DNA of 14,989 bases, taken from contig CAIKYI010000581.1 of the NCBI GenBank assembly GCA_903831545.1, forward strand, positions 1-14,989, written 5' to 3'. Both the position numbers and the translations under genes were made by a program. The notes under the pieces were generated by a model. That model was not told the DNA's origin and searched no databases. It saw only the letters and a program-made list of their open reading frames with translations. How positions within the stretch are numbered: the first letter of the stretch is position 1; the number at the start of each line of letters is the position of its first letter. The DNA is from an uncultured Methylobacter sp. (GTDB lineage: Bacteria > Pseudomonadota > Gammaproteobacteria > Methylococcales > Methylomonadaceae). Shown in pieces: positions 1 to 14,989 of this stretch.

Positions 1-1614
1 GGCTATCATATCAATATCGTTGACACCCCGGGCCATGCCGATTTTGGTGGTGAAGTGGAGCGAGTCTTATCGATGGTTGATTCAGTATTATTGCTGGTTG
101 ATGCGGTAGACGGCCCTATGCCGCAAACCCGTTTTGTAACCCAAAAAGCATTTGCCTTGGGTCTGAAACCGATTGTAGTCATCAACAAAATTGACCGTCC
201 TGGCGCGCGTCCAGACTGGGTTGTGGATCAAACTTTTGATTTATTCGACCGTTTGGGTGCTACCGATGAACAGCTGGATTTCCCTATTGTATTTGCCTCT
301 GCAATCAATGGTTATGCCGGCCTTGAACACACCGTAACGGGTGGTGACATGACACCGTTATTTGAAACTATTATTTCTAAAGTAAGCCCCCCACCGGTTG
401 ATATCGATGGTCCGTTCCAAATGCAGGTAACCAGTCTGGATTACAACACCTATACAGGCGTTATCGGTATTGGTCGTATTCAGCGCGGCACTATCAAACC
501 TAACATGCCACTGGTTATCGTTAATCGGGAAGGTGTGGAACGTAAAGGTCGCATGCTTCAGGTTTATGGTTTTCACGGTTTGGATCGCGTTGAAGTTCAG
601 GAAGCGCGTGCCGGTGACATTATTGCTTTTGCCGGTATTGAAAAACTCGAAATTTCTGACACCATCTGCCATCCGGATTCTGTAGAAGCCATGACACCGT
701 TATCGGTTGATGAGCCTACTGTAACCATGACTTTCCAGGTTAACAATTCGCCATTCGCGGGGCGTGAAGGTAAATTTGTAACTACCCGTCAAATTCGCGA
801 TAGATTGGATAAAGAGTTACAACATAACGTCGCGCTAAAAGTTGAAGACACTGGAGACCCGGATAAATTTAAAGTTTCAGGTCGTGGCGAACTGCATTTA
901 TCGGTTCTGATTGAAAACATGCGTCGCGAGGGCTTTGAAATGGGCGTCTCACGTCCTGAAGTTATTCTTAAAGAAATCGACGGCAAAAAATGTGAGCCGT
1001 TCGAAATGGTCACAATTGAAGTGGAAGAAATCCACCAAGGCACCATCATGGAAAAACTGGGTGACCGTAAAGGTGACCTGACTAACATGGTTCCAGATGG
1101 CAAAGGTCGTATCCGTCTGGAATACATGATGCCGTCACGCGGACTGATTGGTTTCCAAACAGAGTTCATGACCGCTACTTCAGGCTCCGGTTTGTTGTAC
1201 CACGTATTTGATCATTATGGTCCGATGAAACCAGGTGATGTGGGCAGTCGTTCACGTGGCGTATTGATTTCAATGGTTGCAGGTAAAGCGGTTACTTATT
1301 CTTTACATCCATTACAAGAACGTGGCGAGTTGCTGTTGGTAAATGGTGATGAAGTTTATGAAGGCATGTTAGTGGGCCTGCATTCACGTACCAATGATTT
1401 AACTGTTAATCCCTGTAAACCTAAACCGCTGACTAACGTACGCGCATCAGGAACAGATGAAAGTTTGGTGTTGGCGAGAATTCAAAAAATGACGTTAGAG
1501 CAAGCCTTGGAATTTATTGCCGAAGACGAATTGGTAGAAGTCACGCCAAAATCGATACGTTTAAGGAAGAAATTCTTAACTGAAAACGAACGTAAAAGAG
1601 CGTCAAAAAGCTAA
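1..1614 (+). CDS. typA: Ribosome-associated GTPase TypA/BipA, 5' end missing
   Basis: Translational GTPase of the EF-G/LepA superfamily that binds the ribosome and helps 50S assembly and stress or cold adaptation. The reading frame is open from base 1 and gives 537 residues. From memory of the E. coli protein (about 607 aa), roughly 67 N-terminal residues, including the P-loop and switch I, lie outside the window. Visible GTPase motifs are the G3 box DTPGH (residues 9-13 of the fragment), the G4 box NKID and the G5 box SAING. Domain II follows, then the EF-G domain III/V-like parts with [20 protein letters not shown]. The C-terminal BipA-specific domain has [17 protein letters not shown] and [13 protein letters not shown] motifs and ends in a basic tail. 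A GTG at 55 is internal, not the start. The gene converges on the crp-like gene and ends just before a strong hairpin. Identification is certain. Confidence 0.97.
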
Positions 1615-1620
1615 CATGAA

Positions 1621-1653
1621 ACAGATAACATCCCTTCTAGGGATGTTATCTGT
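1621..1653. terminator. Perfect 14-bp hairpin between convergent typA and crp
   Basis: The left arm ACAGATAACATCCC (1621-1634), a 5-base loop and an exactly complementary right arm (1640-1653) form the strongest inverted repeat in the window. It starts 7 bases after the typA stop and ends 14 bases before the crp stop, so it can serve both converging genes. Only a weak T tract follows on either strand: TTT then CATG on the minus strand, and a TTTTT run about 14 bases away on the plus strand. Intrinsic termination is therefore likely but not textbook. Confidence 0.75.
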
Positions 1654-1666
1654 AAATTATCGGTTT

Positions 1667-2320
1667 TTATCTTGTGCCAAAGACCACAATGGTTTTGCCG
1701 TGTGCGGAAATCAGTTTTTTACTTTCGAGTTCTTTTAAAACCCGCCCAGCCATTTCCCTTGAACAACTCACCATACGACCAATTTCTTGTCTGGAGATGT
1801 GCAATTGCATTCCGTCAGGATGGGTTATTGCCTCAGGACTTTTACACAAGTCCAGTAAAGTTCTCGCAACGCGTCCTTCTACATCCATAAACGCCAGATT
1901 ACATAAATTGCGGCTGGTGCTTAAAAGCCTTGCCGATAATTGTTCACCAAGCATATACAAAATATCATGCGCATGTTCCAGTAAGTCTTTTCTTATAACC
2001 TGATGAAAACGGTCGTAACTGATTTCAGCCAAATGGCATTCCGTTCGTGTTCTAACAATCACTTTTCTTGTTTCAACGGTTTGAAAAACCCCAACCTCAC
2101 CAATAAATTCATTTTTATTCAGGTAGGCAAGTATGAGTTCATGATCTCCTTCGGCATCTTCTACGCAAACACTGACTGATCCATCCAAAATAAAAAATAA
2201 ACGATCGCCGGTTTCTCCGGGTCGAACAATAATGGATTTCGCAGGATATTTTTTTACATGACAAAAACGCATGAATTGTTCCAGCGCTTCTTTGTAAGGC
2301 GTTTCTTGGTGGTTAAGCAT
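1667..2320 (-). CDS. crp: Crp/Vfr-type cAMP receptor protein family regulator
   Basis: 217-aa DNA-binding transcription regulator, close to E. coli CRP (about 210 aa) over its whole length. The N-terminal cyclic-nucleotide-binding beta-barrel (about 15-115) contains FIGE (72-75), matching the CRP phosphate-binding loop. A long dimerisation helix (about 112-140) carries R131, T135 and S136, which match CRP R123, T127 and S128. The C-terminal winged helix-turn-helix spans about 170-210. Its recognition helix SREMAGR keeps R188, E189 and R193, equivalent to the CRP residues that read TGTGA half-sites, and the tail SAHGKTIVV is nearly identical to CRP. One pocket residue differs: the CRP Arg82-Ser83 pair is Arg85-Lys86 here. 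An AAGG ribosome site lies 8 bases before the ATG. It is divergent from yhfA, as in E. coli. A role as a true cAMP-responsive regulator is inferred; the family is certain. Confidence 0.93.
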   Translation of the reverse strand: MLNHQETPYKEALEQFMRFCHVKKYPAKSIIVRPGETGDRLFFILDGSVSVCVEDAEGDHELILAYLNKNEFIGEVGVFQTVETRKVIVRTRTECHLAEISYDRFHQVIRKDLLEHAHDILYMLGEQLSARLLSTSRNLCNLAFMDVEGRVARTLLDLCKSPEAITHPDGMQLHISRQEIGRMVSCSREMAGRVLKELESKKLISAHGKTIVVFGTR

Positions 2321-2356
2321 TATAGCAACCTTTCATCTATCATCGGCATTGTTGTA

Positions 2357-2386
2357 ATTATCGCCCACAATGCAGGATTTTCACAA
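2357..2386 (-). promoter_or_regulatory. Candidate crp promoter with a CRP-like half-site
   Basis: On the minus strand, TTGTGA (2386-2381) and GATAAT (2362-2357) are separated by 18 bases, about 35 bases upstream of the crp ATG. The -35-like box contains a TGTGA half-site, but the second half (TGCAT in place of TCACA) is poor. Autoregulation by Crp is thus only a possibility. Confidence 0.4.
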
Positions 2387-2397
2387 AAAAATCAATA

Positions 2398-2428
2398 TTG
2401 TCACACTGGCAGCAAGCGTTTATATGCT
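2398..2428 (+). promoter_or_regulatory. Candidate yhfA promoter
   Basis: TTGTCA (2398-2403) is followed after 17 bases by TATATG (2421-2426), overlapping the alternative box TATGCT (2423-2428, 19-base spacer). This is about 35 bases upstream of the yhfA ATG, which has a GGGG(A) ribosome site at 2450-2454. The boxes are consistent with a sigma-70 promoter but not strongly matched. Confidence 0.4.
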
Positions 2429-2460
2429 AATCTATCAGTCATTTTTTACGGGGAAAATAA

Positions 2461-2877
2461 ATGCAAGTAACAGTTAAGTGGGTAGACGGCGTGATGTTCG
2501 TCGGTGAGACAGGTAGCGGACATGCAGTAGTCATGGATGGGCCTCCTGACCACGGTGGTCGCAATATAGGCATGCGGCCGATGGAAATGCTTTTGCTGGG
2601 TGTGGGCGGCTGTTCGTCATTTGATGTGATCCAGATTCTACAAAAAGGTAGAAATGACCTTGTAAAGTGCGTTGCAGAGGTAACTGCCGAGCGGGTTGAT
2701 GCTATTCCAAGCGTATTTAGCAAAATTCATCTGCATTTTATTGTCAGCGGCCATGATTTAAAACCCGCTGCTGTTGAACGGGCGGTCAAATTATCTGCTG
2801 AAAAGTATTGCTCGGCATCTATCATGTTAAGCAAGGCCGTTGAGATCACCCATGATTTCGAAGTTATTGAGCTTTAA
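2461..2877 (+). CDS. yhfA: OsmC family protein, YhfA-like
   Basis: 138-aa protein matching E. coli YhfA (about 134 aa) along its length: a near-identical start (MQ..VKWV.G..F.GE), PMEMLLLGVGGCS, ILQKGR and LSAEKYCSASIML. OsmC/Ohr proteins are small cytoplasmic dimers with two cysteines, and some are thiol peroxidases acting on organic hydroperoxides. The two family cysteines are at 51 (in GGCS) and 117 (in EKYCS), so the redox pair is intact. The physiological role of the YhfA subgroup is not established, and peroxidase activity is an inference from the family. It is divergent from crp, an arrangement also seen in enterobacteria. No clear hairpin follows it. Confidence 0.92.
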   Translation: MQVTVKWVDGVMFVGETGSGHAVVMDGPPDHGGRNIGMRPMEMLLLGVGGCSSFDVIQILQKGRNDLVKCVAEVTAERVDAIPSVFSKIHLHFIVSGHDLKPAAVERAVKLSAEKYCSASIMLSKAVEITHDFEVIEL

Positions 2878-2919
2878 ATTTTTCCATGAAAGTTGTTAAC
2901 CTAGCAGTGGGAGTGACGC

Positions 2920-3021
2920 TTATGACGCAATTATTGCTTCAATTTGCAACGTAGGCGTAACTTCAATAACAAATGTTGATCCATCGGGGTGATGGAAATG
3001 GTCAGTAGAGATAAATAGAAG
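2920..3021 (-). pseudogene. Possible coding remnant, 33 codons without a start
   Basis: The 178-base gap between yhfA and the next gene holds an open minus-strand stretch that begins just after an in-frame TAA (3022-3024) and ends at TAA (2920-2922). It has no ATG, GTG or TTG start. Its translation looks protein-like, with HFHHPDGSTFVIEVTPT in the middle and the ending LQIEAIIAS. The final IEAI codons lie in a 14-base sequence that recurs in the same frame at the 3' end of the neighbouring membrane gene. It may be the decayed tail of a lost gene or chance. I recognise no family. Confidence 0.22.
2931..2944 (+). repeat. 14-bp direct repeat, copy 1 of 2
   Basis: TTATTGCTTCAATT occurs here and exactly again at 3070-3083, inside the end of the four-helix membrane gene. 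On the minus strand both copies read Ile-Glu-Ala-Ile in frame, which suggests a small local duplication, although chance is possible. Confidence 0.5.
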
Positions 3022-3055
3022 TTATCCCAAGCACCTGAATGGATGCATCAGTTAT

Positions 3056-3559
3056 TCATTTTTTGGCGGTTATTGCTTCAATTATATCTAAATACTCTTC
3101 TATTTTTGGCCTGTATAAAAACAGCCCCAGCGCAGCAAGCCCGGTGAAAATATATAGCGTATTAAAACCGTCACCCCATATAAACATGAGTAAGCCAAAA
3201 ACGCCTATCACTTCGATCAACGACATGGAGACGATGATGGTTGTCAGATAACGTTTTTTAGCTTGAGCAACAATGCTCTCGTCGTTAACAATTGCCTTGT
3301 AGTCAACAGGCATGGTTTGGTTCAGACGTAGTTGAATATGCCGGATCAGGTTTGTTAGTGGAAAGGTTACGATCGCAACTACATAAAATACTGTTCTGAA
3401 AAGTACTCGCTGAGCCTCAGGTAACGGCTCTTGCAGCGTTGCTCCCAAAACATGACAAACAATAGGTATAGCTGCCAACATTGTAAACATTATCCCTGCA
3501 ATGACCCACGGCAAGATAAAATCTGACGTTAATTGTTCGCGTTCAATCGGGCGTCCCAT
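3056..3559 (-). CDS. Unrecognised four-helix inner-membrane protein
   Basis: 167 aa. Four hydrophobic segments are visible: about 14-38, 53-69 (FRTVFYVVAIVTFPLTN), 104-127 (TTIIVSMSLIEVIGVFGLLM) and 133-149. They pair as two hairpins joined by a polar loop of about 30 residues containing RHIQLRLNQT. The third helix has an Ile-Glu-Val-Ile-Gly-x-Phe-Gly pattern with a buried Glu, superficially like rotor-ring or small-hairpin proteins. I cannot assign a family. The ATG at 3557-3559 has a good AGGAAA ribosome site 6 bases upstream. The gene lies 110 bases after the DAB-like operon on the same strand, beyond a hairpin, so it may be read through from it or have its own promoter. A GGTAT-N8-ATACC palindrome sits at 3581-3598, just before the start. 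A role with the operon is not shown. Confidence 0.8.
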   Translation of the reverse strand: MGRPIEREQLTSDFILPWVIAGIMFTMLAAIPIVCHVLGATLQEPLPEAQRVLFRTVFYVVAIVTFPLTNLIRHIQLRLNQTMPVDYKAIVNDESIVAQAKKRYLTTIIVSMSLIEVIGVFGLLMFIWGDGFNTLYIFTGLAALGLFLYRPKIEEYLDIIEAITAKK

Positions 3560-3580
3560 GTTGTTTCCTGTTTAGTTGAT

Positions 3581-3598
3581 GGTATTGACCATGATACC
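3581..3598. promoter_or_regulatory. Small palindrome before the four-helix gene
   Basis: GGTAT (3581-3585) and ATACC (3594-3598) flank 8 bases, ending 22 bases from the ATG of the membrane gene. A second short inverted repeat, ACAAC/GTTGT, lies at 3606-3621. Either could be an operator or chance. Confidence 0.2.
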
Positions 3599-3655
3599 AA
3601 ACCCCACAACCGTCTTGTTGTAATTTAAACATATATACATAATGTGTAGTTTTCT

Positions 3656-3681
3656 GCCAAACATTGACATTAATGTTTGGC
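3656..3681 (-). terminator. Hairpin overlapping the end of the DAB-like operon
   Basis: GCCAAACATT and its complement AATGTTTGGC form a 10-bp perfect stem with a 6-base loop. On the minus strand the TAA stop of NuoM-like 3 starts at the last base of the first arm and runs into the loop. The stem is followed by AGAAAACT, not by a T run. It is a weak intrinsic terminator at best and may instead protect the transcript end or allow read-through into the four-helix gene. Confidence 0.45.
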
Positions 3682-5217
3682 GTCCATGTTGCTCGGAACG
3701 ATTATGTTTTCCAATACCGACTGATCCATGAGCCGAGTCAACCAGGCTTCTGCCGTTGCCCGATTGATTTTAAGCACGTTGTTAGGAAAAAAACCAAAAC
3801 CAAGGATTAATAAGGCTGACACGCACAATAACGTCAGTTCCCGGGGACGTAAGTCCTGTACTTGCCTGACGCCATCCTGGGTAATAGGCCCAAAAAATGC
3901 GCGACGGGTAAAAGACAGCATATACGCGGCACTGAGTATCGCACCAAGTAGTGCGGCGATGCTGATGCTGGGGTGGGCCAGAATAGTGCTTACAACCAAC
4001 AATAATTCAGCGGGAAAACCGCTGGTGCCGGGTAGGCCAATGCTGGCAAGCATGAACAGAAAATAAAAACTGGTTAGCACCGGCATCACTTTAGCCAGGC
4101 CACCCAGATGAATGATTTCGGTACTGCCCAGACGGTGCTGGATAAAACCGGCTAGCAACATCAAAGATCCTGCGATCATCGTAAAATTTAGCAATTGAAA
4201 AATGGCTCCCTGTATACCCTGCATATTCAGGGATGCAATGCCGATGACAACAAGTCCGACATGGCTGACGCTGGCATAAGCAAGCAAACGGCGTAAATTG
4301 GTTTGTTGCAAGGCAATCAAGGCGCTATAAACCAGAGTAATTGCACCAAGAATGCCAAGTACCCAGCTATATTGAACGGCAGCGGAAGGCGCCAGCGGCA
4401 TCACAAAACGAATGATACCAAAAACCCCCAGTTTCAAGCCGGTCAATAGAGCGGTTAACTGCGTGGGCCCTTCCATAGAGACAGTCGGCAGCCAGGTATG
4501 GAACGGTACTAACGGCGCTTTAACCGCAAAGCCAAGGAGTAAGAGCAAAAATACCAGTGCTTGTATATTATCGGCTACTGGCGTTTGCAATAATACCGGT
4601 AAACTGAATGACAAATCCCCTGAAATATTGCCGCCCACAGCGGTGGCATGATTTACAGCAAGTATGATAATTGCAAACAGCAACGGAACTCCGCCAAACA
4701 ACATAAACATCGTGTATTTTATTGCCGCACTCCGTCGCTCTGAGCCTATGCCCCATAAGCCTATCAAAAAGAAAATAGGCGGTAAGGTCAGCTCCCAAAA
4801 CAAAAAGAATAGTGCCAGGTCCAGCGCCAAAAAAACACCCAGAGTGACGCCTTCCAAAGCCAGTAATAAGGCAAAATGCAAGCAGGTCTGATGTTGCACT
4901 GAATTCCAGGAAGCGAGGATAGCCATTATCGTCAGCAGTGCCGACATGGGTAAAAACAAAACCGAAATGCCGTCTACACCAAGCAGATATTCAATATTCA
5001 GGTTTGGTATCCAGGTATAACGCTCAACCAATTGAAAATTAATGTTATCGGCGTCGAACAGCAGCACAATAACGCCTGTCAAAATTAGCTCCAGGGCAGC
5101 AAAAAAAAGCGCAATATATTTTGCAAGGCGAATATTACGGGTCGCTACAATGCAAATTGCACCGAGTATGGGCAGTAAAATAATCAGACTTAAAACAGGA
5201 AAATTTGCATTACTCAT
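3670..5217 (-). CDS. NuoM-like antiporter subunit 3 of DAB-like operon
   Basis: 515-aa polytopic membrane protein of the Proton_antipo_M family (complex I NuoM/NuoL/NuoN, Mrp antiporters), about 14 helices and NuoM length (about 509 aa). The channel residues known from E. coli NuoM are mostly kept: E142 in the FWELTLPP helix (NuoM E144), K233 in FAVKAPLVPFHTWLP (K234), K262 in TGLKLG (K265), and E404 in GFPAELL (E407). The NuoM histidine position in the QMxAHG helix is replaced (QLLNFTMIAG). I take the ATG at 5215-5217 as the start. It overlaps the previous stop by 8 bases, has AGGTTG upstream, and leads straight into a hydrophobic helix. A start at 5268 would add 17 unlikely residues. It is the last gene of the dab-like operon. 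The likely role is ion translocation coupled to DabA; it is not part of a canonical complex I. Confidence 0.88.
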   Translation of the reverse strand: MSNANFPVLSLIILLPILGAICIVATRNIRLAKYIALFFAALELILTGVIVLLFDADNINFQLVERYTWIPNLNIEYLLGVDGISVLFLPMSALLTIMAILASWNSVQHQTCLHFALLLALEGVTLGVFLALDLALFFLFWELTLPPIFFLIGLWGIGSERRSAAIKYTMFMLFGGVPLLFAIIILAVNHATAVGGNISGDLSFSLPVLLQTPVADNIQALVFLLLLLGFAVKAPLVPFHTWLPTVSMEGPTQLTALLTGLKLGVFGIIRFVMPLAPSAAVQYSWVLGILGAITLVYSALIALQQTNLRRLLAYASVSHVGLVVIGIASLNMQGIQGAIFQLLNFTMIAGSLMLLAGFIQHRLGSTEIIHLGGLAKVMPVLTSFYFLFMLASIGLPGTSGFPAELLLVVSTILAHPSISIAALLGAILSAAYMLSFTRRAFFGPITQDGVRQVQDLRPRELTLLCVSALLILGFGFFPNNVLKINRATAEAWLTRLMDQSVLENIIVPSNMDAKH

Positions 5218-6775
5218 GGGGTTCAACCTGGGTACTGGCAGCATCGTCTTTTGATAAAGGCGCGCCATGCATTGGAAATTGTATTTTGATGGCGGCTGCG
5301 TCCTGATCGATAAAGTTCAGCCATGGTGTCGTGTAAAAGCCGGTACCGATAAGAATCAGACAAATGACCACAGTGATGAAACGTTCCTTCCAAACAGGGT
5401 GATGGGAGCAGCTATAAGGTTGTTCAACACGTTTGGGTGTTGCCATAAATATCCGCTGAAAAGCCCATAGCAAAAAAGCGGCAGACATAACATTGCCAAG
5501 CAGAATAGTGATTGCAAGCAACCAGCCGTCTTCTTCGATAATTCCTTCAACGAGTAAGTGTGCCGCGTCAAACCCGGGGGTGCCGGGCATCACCATAGTA
5601 CTCAAAGCAGCTACCAAAAACAGTATGGCTAGCGTACCATTAGTGTCAAACAGGCCGCCTAATCGTGGAAGATAAGCGGTACGGGTACGTTCATAAATCA
5701 GTCCGACACTAAAGAGCATACCTGCCATTGCCAAGCCGTAGGCCACGGACAGTAGCAGGCTACCTTCGAGGCCGTTTTCGTTAAAACAAAAGATGCCTAT
5801 GACCAGCATACCTGTTTGACTGATGACAGCAAAAGCCAATAACCGGCGAATATTGATTTGCATCAATGCAAGCAGTGCTCCGTAAAAGATACTGATAACG
5901 CCCAGCGTCACTACAAAACCGGCCCATTGTTCCGCAACGCCAGGCACCATCGGCAAAATGTACCGAATGACCGCGTAAATACCGAGTTTTAAACCTACCA
6001 AAAAAACCACGGCACTTGCCACTGTGCCCTGTTCGGCCAAAGCGGGCAACCAGCCGTGAAAAGGAAATAAAGGCATTCGGATTGCAAAACCAAAAAAAAG
6101 CAGAATAAAAATTAAAACTTCATCGTGCAAATAGGCGTTGTTTTGTTTAATAGTTAGCCAATCAAAAGTTAGATCATGCTCTGCATCGATTAAACCAAAG
6201 GCCAATAACAAAAAACCTGCCAAGGTCATCAGCAAACCGCTGCCCCAGTATTGCAATAACAAAACCACAACCCATCGTCGATTTTGTCCGGTTCCGGCAT
6301 GGATTGTCAGTAACGCCAGAGGAATAAGTTCCAGAACGCACCAAAACCAAAATTGCAGGGCATTCAGCGCTAAAAAAGCGCCTATCAATATGGTTTCATA
6401 ACCTAGCAAACAAGCAATGAACAAGCGATCGGTAACGTGCCGGGTTATTAAGGTATAAATCAACGCCAGTAACGTCAAAACAGCAGTCAACGGGATAAAC
6501 AAAATATTTGTACCGTCAACGCCGACGCGATAACTTAGTCCCATAAAATGAGCATCTTCAACCAGATGTATACCAGGGTGATCGGCATCGAAAACTGTAA
6601 GTAAATAAACACTGAGCAATACAGTTAGCAGTGCTCCGGCAAAGCCAAATCGTAAGGCAACAACTGATGATCTGGAAAAAAAAATAGCTATCATCGCTAC
6701 CAGTGGAACCAGTGTCAGCGTAGTGAGCAGCGGAAAAGACGTCGTTTCGAACCAGGGTGTAACCGTAATATCCAT
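5210..6775 (-). CDS. NuoM-like antiporter subunit 2, channel residues altered
   Basis: 521-aa membrane protein of the Proton_antipo_M family. The conserved scaffold is clear: the FHGWLPALAEQG loop (239-250), GLKLGIYAVIRY (261-272), LIYERTRTAYLPRLGGL and MPGTPGF. Key residues differ from NuoM: the NuoM K234 position is R233 (FAIRMPLFPFHGW), the K265 equivalent K263 is kept, and the E407 position is not Glu (GFDAAHLL). The histidine in the following helix is Tyr346. E149 in CVLELIP is displaced by two residues from the usual WE-x4-P spacing. The last 25 residues or so form a polar tail. The ATG follows a GAGG site overlapping the dabB stop (gap 7 bases), and its own stop overlaps the next start by 8 bases, so translation is probably coupled. 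It may be a structural or partly uncoupled antiporter module. Assignment to M rather than N type is tentative. Confidence 0.86.
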   Translation of the reverse strand: MDITVTPWFETTSFPLLTTLTLVPLVAMIAIFFSRSSVVALRFGFAGALLTVLLSVYLLTVFDADHPGIHLVEDAHFMGLSYRVGVDGTNILFIPLTAVLTLLALIYTLITRHVTDRLFIACLLGYETILIGAFLALNALQFWFWCVLELIPLALLTIHAGTGQNRRWVVVLLLQYWGSGLLMTLAGFLLLAFGLIDAEHDLTFDWLTIKQNNAYLHDEVLIFILLFFGFAIRMPLFPFHGWLPALAEQGTVASAVVFLVGLKLGIYAVIRYILPMVPGVAEQWAGFVVTLGVISIFYGALLALMQINIRRLLAFAVISQTGMLVIGIFCFNENGLEGSLLLSVAYGLAMAGMLFSVGLIYERTRTAYLPRLGGLFDTNGTLAILFLVAALSTMVMPGTPGFDAAHLLVEGIIEEDGWLLAITILLGNVMSAAFLLWAFQRIFMATPKRVEQPYSCSHHPVWKERFITVVICLILIGTGFYTTPWLNFIDQDAAAIKIQFPMHGAPLSKDDAASTQVEPHE

Positions 6776-6782
6776 CAGGGCC

Positions 6783-8342
6783 TCAAAATGCGACGAGCAA
6801 TGTTATAAACACAAACAACACCAGATAGCGGGGTCTAAGCACCGAGTGTTCAATCATATTGGCGATATGGCCAAGCTGCCTTCCGTAATTGATGGCGTCC
6901 TTGCCAATGCCACGCAACACAAAACGGTCTTCGAACCAATGCAGGATAGCCGCAGTCCATTCAGTAAGTTTTCCTGCCAGGCCACTACCCCGTGCAAATT
7001 TATCGGAATTATTATCCAGCTGGGCTCCTATCATTCGCTCTTCCAGTTGTGCCAATGAAGATATGGCCCTGATTGCCGGATCGGGTGCCCCCATAAGCCA
7101 GTCAACGATATGGTCGTCAAAATAACTAAGGTCATGAGCCAAACCGCGCACCGGCTTAACCAGCGCCCAATCAGTGATGGGGTCAAGCCAGAAACGTTGT
7201 AAGGAGGCAACATATATCCAGGTTGGTATATTGCGCATCAAAGATGTAGTACGCAAATTTCGGACATTATGCATTAGCGCTGGCGCAGTCAAAAATTGAT
7301 AGCAGCGAACCACGGCATGTGCGCACAGATGCCAACCGGCCAATTGCCAGAAGCCCAGACCGCACTCAAGAAACATCAGGCCCAATTGACCTGAGCTTGC
7401 AAAAATCAAAGAGCTTTTAACATCGGTTTGAGTCAGTCCAACCACATAGCTATAAATTGCGGTCAGCAAGCCCACAATTGCAATTAAAGCCATAGCCAGA
7501 GGCGCATGTTCAAAAATGGGTCTTAGTAAAATGATCAGATAGACTCCGGCATGCACCATCACTGCGCCGTAAAAAACCGCGCTTGATGGTGTAGGACCTT
7601 CCATTGCTCTGGCCAGCCAGGGCGTGAATGGCAGTTGCGCGGATTTGGCAAAGGCCGCAACCGTAAAACAAAGTGCCAGTGACGTGGCTTCACCAAGACT
7701 TAACTGGGCAGATGCGGCATTGATGTTGTTCCAGTTGATACTATCTACCCAAGCAAAAGCTAAGCCGGTGCCCAACAAAAAACCGACGTCACCGATGCGA
7801 TTGGTGACAAAGATACGCGTAGCATTCGCGGTGGCTACAGGGCGATCATAAGCATAACCTACCAGCAAATAGGAACACAGACCGGCCACTTCCCAGCCGA
7901 TAAATGTGCAGATTATATTGCCTGATAACACCAGCAACAGCATGGCTGACGAAAACAGGCTCAGGATGAAGAAAAAACGGTGATACCCGGCTTCCCTGTG
8001 CAGGTAGTCAATTGAAAAACGCGTAATTATGGCTAATAGTACTGAAAAAAGCATCGCCAAACGAACATTAAAACCCTGGCAAATAAAGTTGAACTGAATA
8101 TCAAGCATATCGCTGTTAAGCCATTGTCCTGCACTGTAAAACCCGATATTTTTATCTAGTAAGTCAGCGCCCAATAAAGCCAAAGTTAGTAAACAGGACA
8201 TGCTGATAGCCCAGCTGGCAATATCGGCAGTTATGTGCTCAGAACTTTCACCATCAAGCCTGCCAAAAAGATGCCCGAGGCCGATTAGAGCCGCAGCGAG
8301 CAACGGCATTAGAGGGATGAGTATGACTAAGGCATCCATCAT
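6783..8342 (-). CDS. dabB: DabB: NuoL-like membrane subunit paired with DabA
   Basis: 519-aa NuoL-family protein, about 95 residues shorter than NuoL (about 613). Residues 1-355 follow NuoL helices 1-11: WEVAGLCSYLLVG with E151 (NuoL E144), FAKSAQLPFTPWL with K233 (K229), EGPTPSSAVFYG, and H338 and H342. R346 stands where NuoL has Lys342, and the GPTP-helix histidine is Tyr. The usual PGLAGFFSKDE-type helix and those after it are not seen. The sequence passes to LQRFWLDPITDWALVKP, resembling the region before the NuoL lateral helix, then an amphipathic stretch and one terminal helix (about 505-519). In DAB systems this subunit conducts the cation flow that drives DabA. The ATG at 8340-8342 overlaps the dabA stop (ATGA). 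A second ATG at 8337-8339 is better spaced from AGGAG (7 versus 4 bases) and may be the real start. Confidence 0.88.
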   Translation of the reverse strand: MMDALVILIPLMPLLAAALIGLGHLFGRLDGESSEHITADIASWAISMSCLLTLALLGADLLDKNIGFYSAGQWLNSDMLDIQFNFICQGFNVRLAMLFSVLLAIITRFSIDYLHREAGYHRFFFILSLFSSAMLLLVLSGNIICTFIGWEVAGLCSYLLVGYAYDRPVATANATRIFVTNRIGDVGFLLGTGLAFAWVDSINWNNINAASAQLSLGEATSLALCFTVAAFAKSAQLPFTPWLARAMEGPTPSSAVFYGAVMVHAGVYLIILLRPIFEHAPLAMALIAIVGLLTAIYSYVVGLTQTDVKSSLIFASSGQLGLMFLECGLGFWQLAGWHLCAHAVVRCYQFLTAPALMHNVRNLRTTSLMRNIPTWIYVASLQRFWLDPITDWALVKPVRGLAHDLSYFDDHIVDWLMGAPDPAIRAISSLAQLEERMIGAQLDNNSDKFARGSGLAGKLTEWTAAILHWFEDRFVLRGIGKDAINYGRQLGHIANMIEHSVLRPRYLVLFVFITLLVAF

Positions 8343-11300
8343 AGAACTCCTGGCTGTTCAGGTTTGTCCTGAAATGGTTGTTTGATCAAGACCGGCGCTA
8401 CCGGCAGTGTTTGATCCTGGTAACAGTTTTTTGAAGTATCACGAACCGGCAGAGGCCTTGTCTCAGCTTCCCTGCGAACAAACCCCGGGGTTGCGCCAAA
8501 GTTGGCCGTGTGAAAATAAAAAATCTCACCGGTGTCGGGATCTTTTGCGCTTAATTGAACCCAGCCCCCCGCTACCAGTTCCCTGATGCTTTCCTGGCGA
8601 TGATAAATTTTTTCCAACACCGATGTTTTCGCCTCAACCAGAAGCAAAAGGCGCATCGGTTCGTGAATTTCAATCATTTGTCGAGGTAACCCTGTGCGTA
8701 AATCACTACTGGCTCCTTCCATGACCCCAAAAAATCCAGTGACGTTATGGGGAACTTTAGAGCCGCAACCAAAACGGTCGTTATTAACTGTAGAAAAATA
8801 ATATTCCAGATTAATGCCTGCTCCTACCGGAGTTACCGCAAGTAAAATGCCCTCCAGAACTTTACCCTCAGGATCTTGAGTCGGATCATAAGAAATCAGA
8901 AATACCCTTCTATCAAAGAAAGCGCCTTGCGTTAAAGAGCGACGGCCCACTACCGCAGATGCATTGGTCGCATGACCAAGCTCCGGACGAACCTGAGAAA
9001 AATCAGCGGAACGACCCTTGATATGTGCCAAGGCTTGAGCAGGGCTTGGGTTGCGCGGTGCTGAAGCCAACCTGCGGCAGCGTTCGTGGGCGGACATTTG
9101 CTGGGCGTAAGCTAATTCATGCTGTAATTTTTCAAACCCGGCCAGTCGTTCGGTGGGTAATTCTTCAAGGTCATACCAATGGATATCTTCATTGCAAGTG
9201 TTATGTTCCGCGCCGATAAACCAGGAATCTGCAGGGATAGAAAGGCCGGATTTTGCAAGCAATGAGCGTACTTCAGGCCGATTAGCCATTGCCGCAAAAA
9301 CTCGTGCATTGGGGCCGCCATGACGGCCACTGCAAGCCCCGCAATCGTAAGCAGCTAAATGTGGATTATTTTGGCTAAGGGAACCATGTCCCATCAATAC
9401 AATGAGCTCAGAAAATCCGGAGGTTAAGCCGATGTTACGCAAAAAACCTGCGACCCGCTCGGCTTGTTCGATATCGGTAAAGCCCAGTTTAGGGCTTGCT
9501 ATAGAGGCAATCGTGACTGAATCGGCAGAAGTAAACAGTAACTGTGTATCAACTTCAGGAGAGATGAGTTCAGCCGCGAGCGAAACTACATTTTGCGAGA
9601 CTTGGGGAAACAGTGTTTTAGTCAGCAAGCTTGTCATGGCAAACGGTGCGATCACATTAATTACCGGATTCGACAATAACAGATTGCGGCGTAAGCCTTG
9701 ATGAATCTGTCTTGCAAACCATTGGCCCAGCTTGCGCCCCTGATTGTGCCTCCGCACTTGTAATTCACTATCGGGTCTTGGCATTTCCCGAACCTCATGC
9801 GCGGGAGTAACTACCACAGGGCAAAGCGGCGTTACTTTGCTGTCGTCCAAGCCTTTAAAATTCATGGCAACGCCAAAAAAACCGGCGGCGCCCAGTGTTT
9901 CAATGGCGGGATTGAATTCTTCAAGATGGCGTCTAAAACCTTCCTCACGATCGTCCATACAAAACACAAGTTGGGCGTCGGGGCGATGTTTACGAGTGGA
10001 CCAGCGACCACGTTGATGATTAGCTTGTAGCGCCTGGAAAAAATGTTCACGATAATGATATTCGTAAGCCATAAGCCAGACTTTACTGCGCTCAGTCAGC
10101 GTAAATTCATCAAGCACGCTCAACATGGCTTGCATGTCTTTTATATTCAGCGATTGAATGTCAGTGGCATTAAGTCCCAAATGTTGACATAAACGAAACA
10201 AACGCCAGCCACTGTTTTGTTGGTTATGTTGTTCGCTATGCGTTGCCGAGGGGCAGCATTGCCAAGTCCAGATAAGATCGGCAAGGTGTTGCCAATTGGT
10301 GCGGTCATAACGTTCCGAGCCTGCATTTAAAGTCAGTGACTCCGACTTGTGGGTCAAATATTCCGGCAAGTCACCCTGATAAAGACGACTGCGCACCATA
10401 AATTCCGACAGATTTTTACGAAAATAACCTTTGATGGCGCTGAGTTTAGCTTCGACTTTCCAGGTGTCATGACAGGCCTGTTTGAGCCACAGCCTATCCA
10501 AGGTCAGGCGAATAGCGAGATAATCCGCCAGCGTTGGTGCTGCGTCATTCTCGGCAAAGTAATTGGGATGCTGCTGGCGCCAATTGATTAACCCCGACCA
10601 GCCTGGTATTTCAAGTGCCAGTCGCCGAAGATAGCCTTGCCACTTGTCTTGCGGTATTTCAAAATACGTGAGTTGCAAAATGATAGTATCAACAGCATCT
10701 TCCGGCAGTTCGGCGATAATGCTTTGCCAGTCCAGCAGTTCGTGTAAAAAAGGATTGGCGTCAAATTTTGCAGTTGCCCGCCAGGCGGCATAAAGACCTA
10801 ACTTGCCGCGATCGGGCAATTGCCAGGAAGCAACGCCCTCATCCAAGCCGGAGGCACAAAAACGGATTAGCTGCGCTCTGACAGAATCAAGGACATCCAT
10901 GCCGGTCAGGGTTAAGATGAACCCCCTCAGACTGATGCTGTCGCCAATTTTCCTAAAAAGTTCATCCAATGCCAATGCTGCCTGTTGCTGCATTTGTTGA
11001 TGTGTTGTGGTGAGGGGAGTCGTTGCTGTTAAAGTTGCTCCCGCTGACAAATTTTGCTGCGCTTGCTCCAGCCAGTTTTCGGCCTGTTCCACGGACAAAT
11101 CGAGCATGTTTTCGGGATGCAAAGCCGCCTGCTCCAGTCCAAGCCTGGTTAAAATGCTTGTCCATAAAGACCGTATGGCATTACTGTCCGAGGTTAGCAA
11201 GTTCTGGCAAATTAGCTCCGGCACATCGGCTTGAGCGACATCCAATGCCGCCAATTCTTCTATTTGCCAGTTCAGCTGGCTAACGCTGACCGGTTGCAGC

Positions 11301-11653
11301 TCAAATAACAGTGCGATGCGGTAAATATCCTGGCGGGTAATGCGCTTGTCGTTTAGTGCACAAACAATTTGCTCCGCAAGCAAGTCCGGGCATTGTGCAA
11401 AAACCGCAGACAAGTCGTCTTCATCAATTCGTCCCTGCCGATAAAAATCCCTGTTTTGCTGTTCGGGAAGATAACAAAAAATACCTGTCAGGGCCTCAAA
11501 CTCGGCCAGCGCCTCATCAAATGAGCGATGTTGGAAACCATGCAAGGTATTGTGATGCACGAAATCAAGAATAGGTGCCTGCCCAGGCAGAACGTGATCC
11601 AGATGATTCAGTGCGGTGATTATTTGCTCACGTAAAATGTGCGGCTGTTGCAT
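8339..11653 (-). CDS. dabA: DabA: DUF2309/UPF0753 carbonic-anhydrase-like protein
   Basis: 1104-aa, mostly soluble protein of the DUF2309 (UPF0753) family. DabA partners a NuoL-like DabB and is thought to hydrate CO2 to bicarbonate in one direction, driven by cation flow, at the cytoplasmic face of the inner membrane. Zinc-site residues known from Halothiobacillus DabA are all present: C565 and D567 in LVFCMDDREEGFRRH, H756 in VLMGHGS, and C771 in YDCGACSGRHGGPNAR. The His-Cys spacing is 15, as I recall for H. neapolitanus (H524, C539). The N-terminus has the family pattern FVHHNTLHGFQHRSFDEAL (31-49). The C-terminal third has EHNTCNEDIHWYD, RRVFLISYDPTQDPEG and a GFFGVMEGASSDLRTGLP loop. No signal peptide is visible. 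It is a large member of the family. It starts 89 bases after NuoM-like 1 with no recognisable Shine-Dalgarno, and overlaps dabB by 4 bases. Identification is firm; substrate and direction are inferred from the family. Confidence 0.93.
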   Translation of the reverse strand: MQQPHILREQIITALNHLDHVLPGQAPILDFVHHNTLHGFQHRSFDEALAEFEALTGIFCYLPEQQNRDFYRQGRIDEDDLSAVFAQCPDLLAEQIVCALNDKRITRQDIYRIALLFELQPVSVSQLNWQIEELAALDVAQADVPELICQNLLTSDSNAIRSLWTSILTRLGLEQAALHPENMLDLSVEQAENWLEQAQQNLSAGATLTATTPLTTTHQQMQQQAALALDELFRKIGDSISLRGFILTLTGMDVLDSVRAQLIRFCASGLDEGVASWQLPDRGKLGLYAAWRATAKFDANPFLHELLDWQSIIAELPEDAVDTIILQLTYFEIPQDKWQGYLRRLALEIPGWSGLINWRQQHPNYFAENDAAPTLADYLAIRLTLDRLWLKQACHDTWKVEAKLSAIKGYFRKNLSEFMVRSRLYQGDLPEYLTHKSESLTLNAGSERYDRTNWQHLADLIWTWQCCPSATHSEQHNQQNSGWRLFRLCQHLGLNATDIQSLNIKDMQAMLSVLDEFTLTERSKVWLMAYEYHYREHFFQALQANHQRGRWSTRKHRPDAQLVFCMDDREEGFRRHLEEFNPAIETLGAAGFFGVAMNFKGLDDSKVTPLCPVVVTPAHEVREMPRPDSELQVRRHNQGRKLGQWFARQIHQGLRRNLLLSNPVINVIAPFAMTSLLTKTLFPQVSQNVVSLAAELISPEVDTQLLFTSADSVTIASIASPKLGFTDIEQAERVAGFLRNIGLTSGFSELIVLMGHGSLSQNNPHLAAYDCGACSGRHGGPNARVFAAMANRPEVRSLLAKSGLSIPADSWFIGAEHNTCNEDIHWYDLEELPTERLAGFEKLQHELAYAQQMSAHERCRRLASAPRNPSPAQALAHIKGRSADFSQVRPELGHATNASAVVGRRSLTQGAFFDRRVFLISYDPTQDPEGKVLEGILLAVTPVGAGINLEYYFSTVNNDRFGCGSKVPHNVTGFFGVMEGASSDLRTGLPRQMIEIHEPMRLLLLVEAKTSVLEKIYHRQESIRELVAGGWVQLSAKDPDTGEIFYFHTANFGATPGFVRREAETRPLPVRDTSKNCYQDQTLPVAPVLIKQPFQDKPEQPGVL

Positions 11654-11742
11654 TGTGTTGGTTGGTTTTTTATTTAAAATTTAGGACAGGTTTGGGCGTA
11701 TACAGTGACAGGAATTTATCAAAACAGACTGGTGTGCCATGA

Positions 11743-13233
11743 CTATAAAATCCGCTGACTGATGACATTGTTCATCTGAGTTATAGTCGCTGCAGACAAG
11801 TCAATGATCGGCGTCGGCACCAAACCCAAAAACACAATGCCGGTTATCAGTATTCCGGCAGCTAATAACTCCTGTACTTTCAAATCTTCGAGGTCTTGCA
11901 TATCCTGCTTTGCCGGGCCGGTGAAGAGCAGGCTGATCGTTCGTATTGCATAGGCGGCTCCGACTAAAATACTCATGCTAAAACATATCATCACGAACAT
12001 ACTTAGATTAAGGTTGGTAAATGCACTAAAGCTTCCAATCAGGGTGTGCAATTCGGCGATAAAGCCAACTGAGCCGGGCAAGCCAATCGCCGCCAACAAA
12101 GTTAAGGTCAAGAACAACGCAAAACGTGGCATAACCTGAATCAGTGAGCTGTAATCCTGGATGTTACGGGTATGGGTACGCTCATAAAGAAGGCCAATCA
12201 ATAAAAACAGTGCTCCGGCAATCAGTCCGTGTGCGGTCATTTGTAAAACCGCTCCGGTAATACCCGTTTCGTTCAAGGTTGCAATACCTAATAAGACCAT
12301 GCCCATATGACTGATTGAAGAGTAGGCTATCATCGCTTTAAGATCGCTTTGCCGCCAGGCTAGCAAGCCGCCATAAAGCATTCCGAACAATCCCAGAAAA
12401 ATCAGGAAAGGTTGTAATAATTTCGCAGCTTCCGGCAGCATTACCACGGCCCTGATCAAACCATAAGCCCCCATTTTTAGCAAGATACCGGATAACAGGA
12501 TACTGACCGGACTGGGCGCTTCGACGTGCGCCAACGGCAACCAGCCATGCAAAGGGAAAATAGGCATTTTGACGCCAAAGCCGATCAAAAAGCCGAGCAA
12601 CACTAAAACCTGCTCAACTCTGGGCATGTCTTGCGCGGCCTGATGCATGGACGACATTAAAGAGCCACCGTGTTCAAGATCATACTGACTGATGGCCAGT
12701 AAGCTGATCAGCATAAAAACCGAACCGCCCATGGTATAAAGTACAAAATTAAGGCTTGCGGAGTGCCGTCTTTTTCCACCCCAGCGCCCAATCAGGAAAA
12801 ATAAAGGGATTAAAGTCACTTCCCAGAAAATATAAAAAAGTGCCCAATCTTGCGCCAAAAACACGCCTAACATGCCAAACTCAAGTAACAATATACAGAT
12901 GTGATAGCCTTTAACGCCGCTGCTAACAGTAAATGAAGCCAGTAAAGCAATTGAGGTGAGTAGCGTCGCCATCACCAACATCGGCATCGATAAACCATCT
13001 ATGCCTAAAGCATAGGCACTGCCCAATTTAGGATTTAGCGGAAAATATTCATTAAACTGCAAATTTGGATCGTGCGCGTTATAAAGGCTCAGCAACCAGC
13101 AGACCAATAATAGAGTCGCGGCTGTAAACAGATTCGCGATGTAACGGATTAGCAAAATATTCTGGCCGGGAGTTAAAGCCAAGAGCAAGGCTCCTGCTGC
13201 CGGAGTCCAGAGCAGGATACTGAGTATTCCCAT
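11743..13233 (-). CDS. NuoM-like antiporter subunit 1, first gene of DAB-like operon
   Basis: 496-aa NuoM-type Proton_antipo_M protein and the most canonical of the three in this operon. Channel residues are all present: E138 in FWEVTLIPLFFLIG (NuoM E144), K222 in FGVKMPIFPLHGWLP (K234), K253 in GILLKMGAYG (K265), H335 in MTAHGLIAG and E394 in GFIAELHTLIG (E407). HVEAPSPVSILLSG and LLYERTHTR are typical NuoM signatures. I chose the ATG at 13231-13233, 11 bases after AAGGA and directly before the first helix (MGILSILLWTPAAG). An upstream ATG at 13311 would add 26 polar residues and is unlikely. There are no other complex I genes beside it, and dabA follows after 89 bases, so it belongs to a DAB-like energy-coupled assembly and not to a NADH dehydrogenase. 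Whether it contacts DabB directly is unknown. Confidence 0.9.
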   Translation of the reverse strand: MGILSILLWTPAAGALLLALTPGQNILLIRYIANLFTAATLLLVCWLLSLYNAHDPNLQFNEYFPLNPKLGSAYALGIDGLSMPMLVMATLLTSIALLASFTVSSGVKGYHICILLLEFGMLGVFLAQDWALFYIFWEVTLIPLFFLIGRWGGKRRHSASLNFVLYTMGGSVFMLISLLAISQYDLEHGGSLMSSMHQAAQDMPRVEQVLVLLGFLIGFGVKMPIFPLHGWLPLAHVEAPSPVSILLSGILLKMGAYGLIRAVVMLPEAAKLLQPFLIFLGLFGMLYGGLLAWRQSDLKAMIAYSSISHMGMVLLGIATLNETGITGAVLQMTAHGLIAGALFLLIGLLYERTHTRNIQDYSSLIQVMPRFALFLTLTLLAAIGLPGSVGFIAELHTLIGSFSAFTNLNLSMFVMICFSMSILVGAAYAIRTISLLFTGPAKQDMQDLEDLKVQELLAAGILITGIVFLGLVPTPIIDLSAATITQMNNVISQRIL

Positions 13234-13247
13234 AGTTTTAGAATTCC

Positions 13248-13407
13248 TTAAGTTCTGTTGTCTGGTGGTTACAATGTTTTCTAATTGTACGTTAAGACAT
13301 AACCAGAGCAAGCATTACCCTGAGTCTTTTAATGTTTGTACCTTACAGTCATCCTGAAACTGAATTCAAGCCTCTGTTATTTTAGGTGCATATCAGACAG
13401 AACTTAA
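13248..13407. repeat. 11-bp inverted repeat and octamer in the operon leader
   Basis: TTAAGTTCTGT at 13248-13258 is matched exactly in inverted orientation by ACAGAACTTAA at 13397-13407. The core AAGTTCTG occurs a third time at 13497-13504. The copies flank the candidate promoter of the DAB-like operon, so they could be regulator sites. The third copy partly overlaps the kinase-gene terminator. Confidence 0.35.
13284..13311 (-). promoter_or_regulatory. Candidate promoter of the DAB-like operon
   Basis: On the minus strand, TTGCTC (13311-13306) and TACAAT (13289-13284) are separated by 16 bases, giving a predicted leader of about 45 bases before the NuoM-like 1 start. The -10 box has one mismatch to consensus and the -35 keeps TTG. 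No other pair in the gap looks better to me, but weak or activator-dependent promoters could be missed. Confidence 0.4.
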
Positions 13408-13524: not shown

Positions 13525-14898
13525 TTATGGCTGATTAAAAATCAGCTCGATTCTGGTACCGCCCGCCTCGCTAGCGCTATTTAACTCTAGTCGCGCCTTA
13601 TGCAGATCGGCAATCTCCTTGACAATGGCCAGTCCTAATCCACAGCCATCGCCCAGACTTCCTGGAATACGATAAAATCGTTCGAAAACCTTGTCTATTT
13701 CAAACTTGGGTATGCCGGGGCCGTCATCTTCGATACTCAGGCAAGGTGATGGATAAGGTTCGACTTTTACAGTGACATTACCCCGGTCATGCCCGTAACT
13801 AATTGCATTATCGACTAAATTAGCCAACAATTCCCGCAACAAAACTTCATCCCCCTGCACAAATAGTGATGGTTTAACGCATTCAAAACTGAGCTCCATG
13901 TGCCGTTGCAAGGCTTTAGGCACCCAGTCCATACAAGTTTCTTTAGCGAGTTTGCACAAATCGACGGGGCGCAATTCATAATCACCATTGATGGTCTCCG
14001 ATCTGGCTAAAATCAATAATTGAGTGGTCAAATGCGACATACGATCCGCGCAACCTTGAATGTGAATCAGGGCTGGTTTCATGGCAGGTAAATCCTGTTC
14101 GCGCTGTGCGCGTTCAACTTGCAATTTCAAGCCCGCCAGCGGGGTACGTAGTTGATGCGCCGCATTGGCAATAAAACGTTGCTGGGTAGCGATGGCTAAT
14201 GACAGGCGCGCCAGTAAGTCATTGATGGTATCGGTCAACGTCCGCACTTCCAGAAAAACATGCTGTTCGGAGATTGGCCGCAAATCACGTGATGAGCGCT
14301 GGGCAATTTCATCGGCCAATACGTGCAATGGTTGTAATCCACGTTTTACGCCCATTACCAGATAGATACCAGCAAAAAAAACCAGCACCATCTGCGGTAA
14401 AAGGTCAGCCAACAGAATATCCATCATCATATTGCGTCGTTTATTTAAGGTCTCCGCAACATGAACAAAAATCTTTTCCGAGCTGTGTTCAAGACTAATA
14501 AACATGGATACCACTCTGACCGGTTCGCCATACATCTCATCATTGAAATAGACGGGGTGCATCCAATCAGTTTCCAAATCAAGCGGCTCAGGTACAAACT
14601 TATCACCCGCCAAAATGCCTTTTTGGTCCGAAATAATTTTAAAATAGGTTTTATCCGATTCATCCCATTTAAAAATCTCTTCCGCAGCAGGAGGCAATTC
14701 AACGAACACATTGCCTGCACTTACTTTGATTTCCTGGGTTAAAGACCTCGCCGAATCGAGTAGCCAGCGATCATAAGCTACATCAACATGATGCAAAGTG
14801 ACAAAATAAGACAGGACGGACTCGATGCTTATAAAAACAATCAACGGTATGGCCAAGCGTAAAAGGATTTCAGTTTTAAGGCTGCGTTTTTTAGTCAT
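13525..14898 (-). CDS. Sensor histidine kinase, TctE/QseC type
   Basis: 457-aa inner-membrane two-component sensor kinase. Transmembrane helix 1 spans about 11-32, a periplasmic sensor region of the 2CSK_N kind about 33-160, helix 2 about 163-184, then HAMP (about 185-237). The HisKA box has the phospho-accepting H248 in NAAHQLRTPLAGLK. The ATPase domain has N364 in LVDNAISYG, the G1 box DDGPGIP (391-397), FERFYR, and the G2 box GCGLGLAIV (418-426). All catalytic motifs are intact. The start is the ATG at 14896-14898, which overlaps the response-regulator stop by 8 bases (ATGACTAA) and follows GGAGAG. A start at 14925 would lie inside the regulator gene. The sensor region resembles TctE, a tricarboxylate sensor, but the ligand cannot be read from sequence. 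It is directly upstream of the DAB-like operon on the same strand, with a terminator between. Confidence 0.93.
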   Translation of the reverse strand: MTKKRSLKTEILLRLAIPLIVFISIESVLSYFVTLHHVDVAYDRWLLDSARSLTQEIKVSAGNVFVELPPAAEEIFKWDESDKTYFKIISDQKGILAGDKFVPEPLDLETDWMHPVYFNDEMYGEPVRVVSMFISLEHSSEKIFVHVAETLNKRRNMMMDILLADLLPQMVLVFFAGIYLVMGVKRGLQPLHVLADEIAQRSSRDLRPISEQHVFLEVRTLTDTINDLLARLSLAIATQQRFIANAAHQLRTPLAGLKLQVERAQREQDLPAMKPALIHIQGCADRMSHLTTQLLILARSETINGDYELRPVDLCKLAKETCMDWVPKALQRHMELSFECVKPSLFVQGDEVLLRELLANLVDNAISYGHDRGNVTVKVEPYPSPCLSIEDDGPGIPKFEIDKVFERFYRIPGSLGDGCGLGLAIVKEIADLHKARLELNSASEAGGTRIELIFNQP

Positions 14899-14989
14899 CG
14901 GTCGATCTCTCCAGTAAATAACCAAGTCCTCGCACCGTTCGAATCACCGCATCGAAATTTTCTATACGCTTGCGCAATCGATGCACATA
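14891..14989 (-). CDS. OmpR-family response regulator, C-terminal fragment
   Basis: The last 32 codons and TAA stop of a gene running off the right edge. The translation YVHRLRKRIE...IRTVRGLGYLLE is the recognition helix and wing of an OmpR/PhoB-type winged-helix DNA-binding domain. The receiver domain lies outside the window. The stop overlaps the ATG of the sensor kinase by 8 bases, so the two are a co-translated cognate pair (TctD/QseB-like). The target genes are unknown. Confidence 0.9.
   Translation of the reverse strand, partial: YVHRLRKRIENFDAVIRTVRGLGYLLERSTDD

Follow-up and report, generated by a model that had tools for sequence, protein, structure and literature searches.

DAB systems, known machines for CO2 uptake, occur in forms of one to three subunits. 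In DAB2 of Halothiobacillus neapolitanus (DabA2-DabB2; PDB 9rd0, 9rd8, 9rd9), described as a vectorial carbonic anhydrase driven by the proton-motive force, transmembrane helices (TM) 12-13 and a finger form the periplasmic half-channel, and changing the finger residue Glu444 to Ala or Gln abolishes activity (PMC13144422). The same source mentions two- and three-subunit DAB forms. In DAB1 of this organism, DabB1 and a small membrane protein accompany a DabA1 of 1046 amino acids (PMC4633670, PMC13144422). As early as 2017, genes for DUF2309, the family of DabA, were reported to lie upstream of nuoL, often with NuoM and SulP genes, and it was suggested that more membrane subunits would move more ions, with the opposite direction of energy flow (PMC5700660). 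Here we analyse an entire contig of 14,989 bases (C581, called the window below) from a genome of 805 contigs and 3.64 Mb that is 72.7% complete. Its list of open reading frames (ORFs) contains, on the minus strand, five genes in the order M1-DabA-L-M2-M3, i.e.: NuoM-DabA-NuoL(DabB)-NuoM-NuoM, and judged by this locus the closest relatives of the window are Methylobacter. Comparison of the sequences points to a larger, differently built version of the known CO2-uptake machine. We propose that the five proteins form one membrane complex of the DAB kind, in which CO2 hydration by DabA would be driven by protons moving inward through a redox-free arm, a reading to which we give a probability of about 0.6.

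A fixed set of five genes

An earlier note on this DNA, made from its letters and ORFs, had described five same-strand genes in this order, the last four overlapping or within 7 base pairs (bp), and the ORFs together with Pfam and NCBIfam matches bear this out. M1 and DabA are 89 bp apart, DabA and L overlap by 4 bp, L and M2 are separated by 7 bp, and M2 and M3 overlap; with the ATG at 5217 as the start of M3 the latter overlap is 8 bp, the most frequent value among 61 relatives. The NuoM profile TIGR01972 gives M1 485, M3 463 and M2 280 bits, all above the cut-off of 264. The NuoL match of L is limited to residues 4-364 and, at 277 bits, stays under the NuoL cut-off of 407.5. The trees agree with the note in counting one NuoL-like and three NuoM-like subunits, and its statement that NuoA-K, NuoH and redox subunits are missing holds for all contig ORFs of at least 90 amino acids. 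Likewise, none of the Mrp antiporter partners MrpB, C, E, F and G was seen on the 15-kb contig. In the window's incomplete genome, NuoL, NuoM and NuoN of complex I were not found, the six PF00361 matches being the four of this locus and two Mrp-like ones; a relative (G019) has all three.

The five genes are a fixed, jointly inherited unit across methanotrophs, ammonia oxidisers and magnetic bacteria. A scan of species genomes yielded 372 stretches with a DabA relative, and our conservation counts refer to the best 80 of these. The survey of DUF2309 neighbourhoods that the note had suggested found M1-DabA-L-M2-M3 whole and in order in 63 of the 80 related loci, so that the arrangement is more than chance. 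Another 12 are interrupted by contig ends and agree with the five-gene order. The last five have no L next to DabA (L070, L091, L066, L068 and L073), and in the latter three the contigs stop 183, 238 and 846 bp past DabA. The 63 complete loci include one with an interrupted L gene (L032) and one with an extra DAB upstream (L086). Among the 61 simplest loci, neighbours overlap or lie at most 10 bp apart in 45 for M1-DabA, 53 for DabA-L, 58 for L-M2 and 57 for M2-M3. Hosts include Methylobacter, Methylomonas, Methylovulum, Crenothrix, Nitrosomonas, Nitrosospira, Nitrosovibrio, Nitrotoga and Magnetococcales.

PF10070 is present in 90 of 370 genomes of the window's class. From this class we took a wider sample of 80 regions, 60 picked for a long DabA (3 from an earlier search) and 20 with a short DabA; it overlaps the best-80 set, L136 and L102 being the same contig. 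Apart from some odd ones, the regions show three architectures: the five-gene type, DAB1 (L-small protein-DabA) and DAB2 (L-DabA). The five-gene type (DabA above 1000 bits) comprises 22 regions, of which 15 have the genes in order (counting L161, where M1 runs off the contig, and L158, whose M3 is divided between two ORFs), 2 stop at a contig end after L, 3 carry an L-M2 fusion and 2 are split. The remaining 58 regions contain no M-type match above 410 bits, the strongest two being complex-I-like (L149) and Mrp-associated (L114).

Co-inheritance was also seen from the side of M2. Run against 397 genomes of the phylum, with up to three candidates scored per genome, the M2 profile gave 27 clear matches (at least 525 bits) and one fragment, followed by a next-best match of 322 bits; in each of the 28 genomes with M2, a DabA of the five-gene type is present as well. 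Of 20 further regions taken from this search, 19 lie outside the window's class (four of them, from G464, G479, G492 and G520, are Magnetococcales matches) and one inside it (G638). In 19 of these regions DabA accompanies the set, which is either whole or truncated at a contig end; the other, L296, is rearranged and without DabA. Where the genes are dispersed they are nonetheless all kept, on separate stretches, in seven of seven split genomes examined (G386, G148, G143, G437, G447, G448 and G567; the genomes of L066, L070, L073 and G266 were left out of this check). For instance, G148 has M1-L-M2-M3 together and DabA by itself, and G447 and G448 have M1-DabA apart from L-M2-M3. In three genomes of one family, Competibacteraceae, L and M2 are a single protein of 1037-1045 amino acids with the L domain first. 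The 46 fusion proteins listed from the database, at least 93% covered, all carry the same residue signature and, where named, belong mostly to Competibacter, Contendobacter and Competibacteraceae.

Table 1. Coordinates of the five genes, and of the tail of L, in the window.
Feature	Coordinates	Strand	Remarks
M1, NuoM-like	11743..13311	-	longest ORF starts TTG; probable start ATG 13233; channel residues intact
DabA, long form, beta-carbonic-anhydrase-like	8339..11653	-	1104 amino acids; PF10070 840 bits
L, DabB (NuoL-like)	6783..8342	-	519 amino acids; without the hydrophobic segments of TM12-15
C-terminal tail of L, residues 362-519	6786..7259	-	NuoL/NdhF lateral-arm-like stretch, then one C-terminal hydrophobic helix
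M2, degenerate NuoM-like	5210..6775	-	three charged channel residues replaced; fused to L in Competibacteraceae
M3, NuoM-like	3670..5268	-	longest ORF; probable start ATG 5217; charged channel residues intact

Two variations of the locus were also noted. In four loci (L039, L041, L054 and L055), DabA and L are separated by a shared intergenic stretch of about 0.4-0.45 kb that is 74-90% identical. In L076 and L086 a second, two-gene DAB (DabA of 867 and DabB of about 630 amino acids) adjoins the five-gene set upstream of M1.

Channel residues of M1, M2 and M3

M1 of the window has E164, K248, K279, H361 and E420 intact (numbered from the longest ORF), and the TM5 Glu, TM7 Lys, TM8 Lys and TM12 Glu occur in 94, 95, 95 and 94 of 95 M1 proteins. 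M3 keeps the same four charged positions (E159, K250, K279 and E421 in the window; 85, 85, 84 and 83 of 85 proteins), with Phe in all 85 at the TM10/11 His position, F362 in the window. M2 has V147, R233 and A405 at the TM5 Glu, TM7 Lys and TM12 Glu positions and keeps the TM8 Lys as K263; this pattern, uncharged at both Glu positions, Arg for the TM7 Lys and the TM8 Lys retained, is found in 87 of 87 M2 proteins. The residue patterns, including those of L and DabA given below, recur in the further regions (17 DabA, 20 L, 20 M2, 18 M1 and 19 M3), apart from two M2 rows, one of which has a gap at TM5 and the other His at TM12. In the tree, M1 (100/100), M2 (100/100) and M3 (99/99) are distinct clades on the NuoM side, with M2 and M3 as sisters (99/96) and M1 joining complex I NuoM with weak support (90/74); an earlier long-branch tree broadly agrees.

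The earlier note had suggested that the complex, with three extra subunits, might move several ions per CO2 hydrated or run at low driving force. That all three are extra pumps is not supported by these data. Since M2 has lost three of its four charged channel residues and L is without the TM12-15 segments, the set would contain at most two complete NuoM-type channels, M1 and M3. With M2 channel-dead in 87 of 87 proteins, one or more of the M subunits must do their work in the absence of a complete channel, as would be expected if the M subunits were a scaffold or regulators that stabilise a truncated L and set the open or closed state while carrying no ions. A pure scaffold, however, would not need the Glu, Lys, Lys and Glu that nearly all M1 and M3 have kept, and we regard this explanation as quite improbable.

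L, an apparently shortened NuoL-like subunit

L belongs to the DabB clade of the tree (95/91). In the window it has E151/R182/D185/K233, plus Y258 and R346. The NuoL Glu, Glu151, is present in 94 of 94 L proteins and in none of 35 DAB1 and 21 DAB2 subunits. A simple hydropathy count, which leaves out four over-long ORFs, found one hydrophobic segment after TM11, at the very end of the protein, in 84 of 90 L (three have two, one has none and two are without the motif), and in 15 of 19 L of the further regions (four without the motif). The same count gave four such segments in 35/35 DAB1 and 16/21 DAB2 subunits and five in 5/7 NuoL. TM12-15 therefore appear to be missing from L; the topology of the protein would be unaltered by the loss of four helices.

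The remaining tail probably keeps a NuoL-like lateral arm and a C-terminal anchor. The best PDB match of its profile, a weak one, is NdhF 567-615 (E 0.0094), and three of the five listed chains are NdhF. The complex-I-like membrane arm that the earlier note had suggested fits with this probable lateral arm and its weak matches, with the L-M2 fusion and with the inheritance of the unit together with DabA. In a separate observation, about 0.95 kb interrupts the L gene of Methylobacter tundripaludum SV96 (L032, 14600-15600) at the junction between TM11 and the tail.

The state of L bears on a second explanation, in which DabA and L are a complete two-subunit DAB and M1-M3 a separate, co-transcribed cation/proton antiporter, used for example in proton re-export or pH balance during bicarbonate accumulation. 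Sister two-gene DABs without M genes do exist (L076, L086, L245 and L251), a related DabA lies inside an Mrp-like antiporter operon (L114), and M1 and M3 keep the charged residues of antiporters. One locus, L226, even has M1-L-M2-M3 apart from DabA, yet in this split L stays with the M genes and leaves DabA. Moreover, L and M2 are fused in Competibacteraceae, M2 never occurs without DabA in our sample (28/28), and L, being without the TM12-15 segments, would not be a full channel as in DAB2. A separate antiporter thus seems unlikely to us.

Residues and descent of DabA

In the midpoint-rooted DabA tree the five-gene type is one clade (100/100). It is sister to a group (98/93) made up of two-gene DABs from methanotrophs together with the three-gene L155, and L114, DAB1 and DAB2 follow. 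Equivalents of the zinc ligands and the Asp-Arg dyad of DAB2 (C351, D353, R355, H524 and C539) are found in 100 of 100 five-gene DabA, rows that include some near-duplicates; in the window they are C565, D567, R569, H756 and C771. The position of the finger Glu444 is different: Glu is found in 36/36 DAB1 and 22/22 DAB2 proteins and in 0/100 five-gene DabA (Asp 45, Asn 25, His 1, neutral 29), and N666 of the window aligns to it. Where DAB2 has Leu658 the window has H894, and this position is His in all 100. Odd sister rows without the five-gene set have Glu at the finger in 0/4 and His at the Leu658 position in 3/4. We had considered the M subunits as the cause of Glu151, of the loss of Glu444 and of His894, and dropped the idea, as the sister lineage has all of these.

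Two relatives show other arrangements. In L114 (G103, 544-12451) a DabA of 950 amino acids, behind a SulP-like gene, heads an Mrp-type operon with MnhE and a chain-4L-like protein (Pfam), other small Mrp-like genes (by eye), followed by genes resembling N, NuoL and NuoM; this is a DAB expansion of another kind. L155 (G446, 5179-12442) is a three-gene form: besides a SulP-like gene (by eye) and DabA it has L and a single NuoM-like gene of extreme divergence; by elimination, its L also seems to be without hydrophobic segments after TM11.

Flanking genes and host metabolism

Genes for inorganic carbon, in five clusters (SulP, Sbt_1, PII, Pro_CA and a weak CsoSCA; one member of each checked by Pfam), flank 29 of the 76 tabulated loci, a raw count, uncorrected for background, over flanks of differing length. 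L088 and L109 have a further Pro_CA gene nearby. The weak CsoSCA protein (35 bits; L048 18063-19181, cluster c13) lies near the set in eight loci, mostly of nitrifiers. RuBisCO was rejected as a defining partner: it was found in 0/10 genomes of the window's genus, 0/4 of other family members, 0/3 of the fusion family, 0/18 outside the class and 23/23 of the rest.

Upstream of M1, the window has a gene for a QseC-like sensor kinase (13525-14925), and a kinase with 80-84% identity occupies the same place and strand in L040, L041, L049 and L081, a possible regulator. A 167-amino-acid ORF (3559-3056) was tried as a sixth subunit and rejected, with no relative in the 80 loci and no Pfam match above cut-off.

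Weighing a proposed five-subunit complex

Several points weigh against reading the set as one proton-driven DAB complex. Because the finger Glu444 is absent and Leu658 is His, the alignments indicate that the mechanism of DAB2 cannot be transferred unchanged, and conservation of the alignment is poor around the finger column itself. Nor do the M subunits account for the Glu444 loss and the His, because sister DABs without the set share both; Glu151 of L, too, is found in the four odd sister rows. The match of the L tail to NuoL 514-581 (hhalign) has an E of 0.0075 and a probability of 5.2%, i.e.: a weak match, and the second-ranked PDB chain is an unrelated CheC-like one (E 0.057). No carbon-handling gene is seen in the window or in the flanks of 47 of the 76 loci, a number that falls to 45 once the carbonic anhydrases of L088 and L109 are included. 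Finally, RuBisCO is found in just 23 of 58 genomes with this DabA or M2, so the role of the set would be wider than the Calvin cycle.

In the five-subunit DAB that we favour, DabA would hydrate cytoplasmic CO2 to bicarbonate in one direction only, with the energy coming from protons that flow inward via a redox-free arm of L, M1, M2 and M3. M1 and M3, as two complete NuoM-type channels, would be the simplest proton route, and M2 may be a channel-dead spacer or a relay with a fixed positive charge. L would provide a NuoL-like cytoplasmic half-channel beside the DabA finger and link the arm to DabA, its lateral arm and anchor helix tying the M subunits to it. A periplasmic half-channel of the DAB2 form would be impossible here, because there is neither a finger glutamate nor TM12-13. 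Much more tentatively, the set might be a redox-free relative of the complex I arm, in which the two NuoM channels, the dead M2 and a half-NuoL whose lateral arm is long relay proton flow over a distance to the carbonic anhydrase, replacing the finger-glutamate coupling and involving no electrons; we hold this to be possible, and rather doubtful, the more so as the hhalign probability of the lateral-arm match is low.

The sequences show the gene set, its joint inheritance, the residue pattern, the L-M2 fusion and the lack of hydrophobic segments in L; the assembly of all five proteins into one complex, the lateral arm, the proton as the ion, the direction of its flow, the stoichiometry and the benefit we infer. 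By hand calculation, a 100-fold gain in bicarbonate costs about 11 kJ/mol, for which one proton needs about 118 mV and two protons about 59 mV. On this estimate, extra channels would serve a low driving force, not steeper gradients, and the benefit would be a supply of bicarbonate at low proton-motive force. The reverse operation, in which DabA would catalyse an exergonic reaction that powers the pumping of ions out of the cell, was once proposed for DUF2309-NuoL operons by analogy with complex I (PMC5700660). Against it, DAB2 is reported to run on the proton-motive force (PMC13144422), and CO2 hydration near pH 7.5 yields, again by hand calculation, about 6-7 kJ/mol, far under the cost of one proton at 150-180 mV. 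We consider it highly improbable.

The way in which complex I passes energy along its antiporter-like subunits has long been an unsolved problem, which electron transfer makes harder to study. If the five-subunit complex is real, nature would offer an arm that combines intact, dead and truncated antiporter subunits and drives CO2 hydration alone, so that long-range coupling could be put to the test free of redox chemistry. Such a complex would, in addition, account for the bicarbonate supply of methanotrophs, nitrifiers and magnetotactic cocci, some of them without RuBisCO.

Comparison with known systems

The association of NuoM genes with DUF2309 has been seen before, and we dropped our claim to the contrary (PMC5700660). 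The clade C DUF2309 (YbcC/COG3002) operons of that paper, with COG1009, COG1008 and COG0659, share DUF2309-nuoL, NuoM and a SulP permease, and this clade probably includes the present system. The part of its text that we cite states no number of subunits, does not separate M1, M2 and M3, analyses neither the residues nor the helices of NuoM and names no CO2 function. The earlier note would count a published description of this exact five-gene complex as a refutation. The gene association and the idea of more subunits moving more ions date from 2017 (PMC5700660), and apart from that paper no description of a defined five-subunit complex turned up in a search that reached neither supplements nor most subscription papers (also consulted: PMC10880623, PMC9164163, PMC7784846, PMC11636981 and PMC9080137).

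With DAB2 the set has in common PF10070, the zinc and Asp-Arg residues, a NuoL-like DabB and the lack of a redox partner. DAB2 differs in having two subunits only, none of them NuoM-like, a DabA of 870 amino acids with Glu444 and Leu658 present, and a short-armed DabB of 15 TM helices (PMC13144422). DAB1, which is linked to carboxysomes, likewise combines a long DabA with DabB (PMC4633670, PMC13144422). It differs in its order, L-small protein-DabA, in being without NuoM-like subunits and in its separate DabA clade.

The cyanobacterial CO2-hydrating NDH-1MS complexes also couple a carbonic-anhydrase-like protein to NuoM- and NuoL-like subunits (PMC13144422). In contrast to the present set, they are driven by electrons from ferredoxin and have a full NDH-1 core. 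The subunits in question are NdhD3-NdhF3-CupA, and the carbonic anhydrase subunit is unrelated to DabA. Compared with the membrane arm of respiratory complex I (NuoL, NuoM and NuoN), the five-gene set is without an N-type subunit, NuoA-K, NuoH and a peripheral arm, and its M1 and M2+M3 clades stand apart from complex I NuoM in the tree, as L does from the complex I rows; what the two have in common are the subunit families and, probably, the lateral arm of NuoL.

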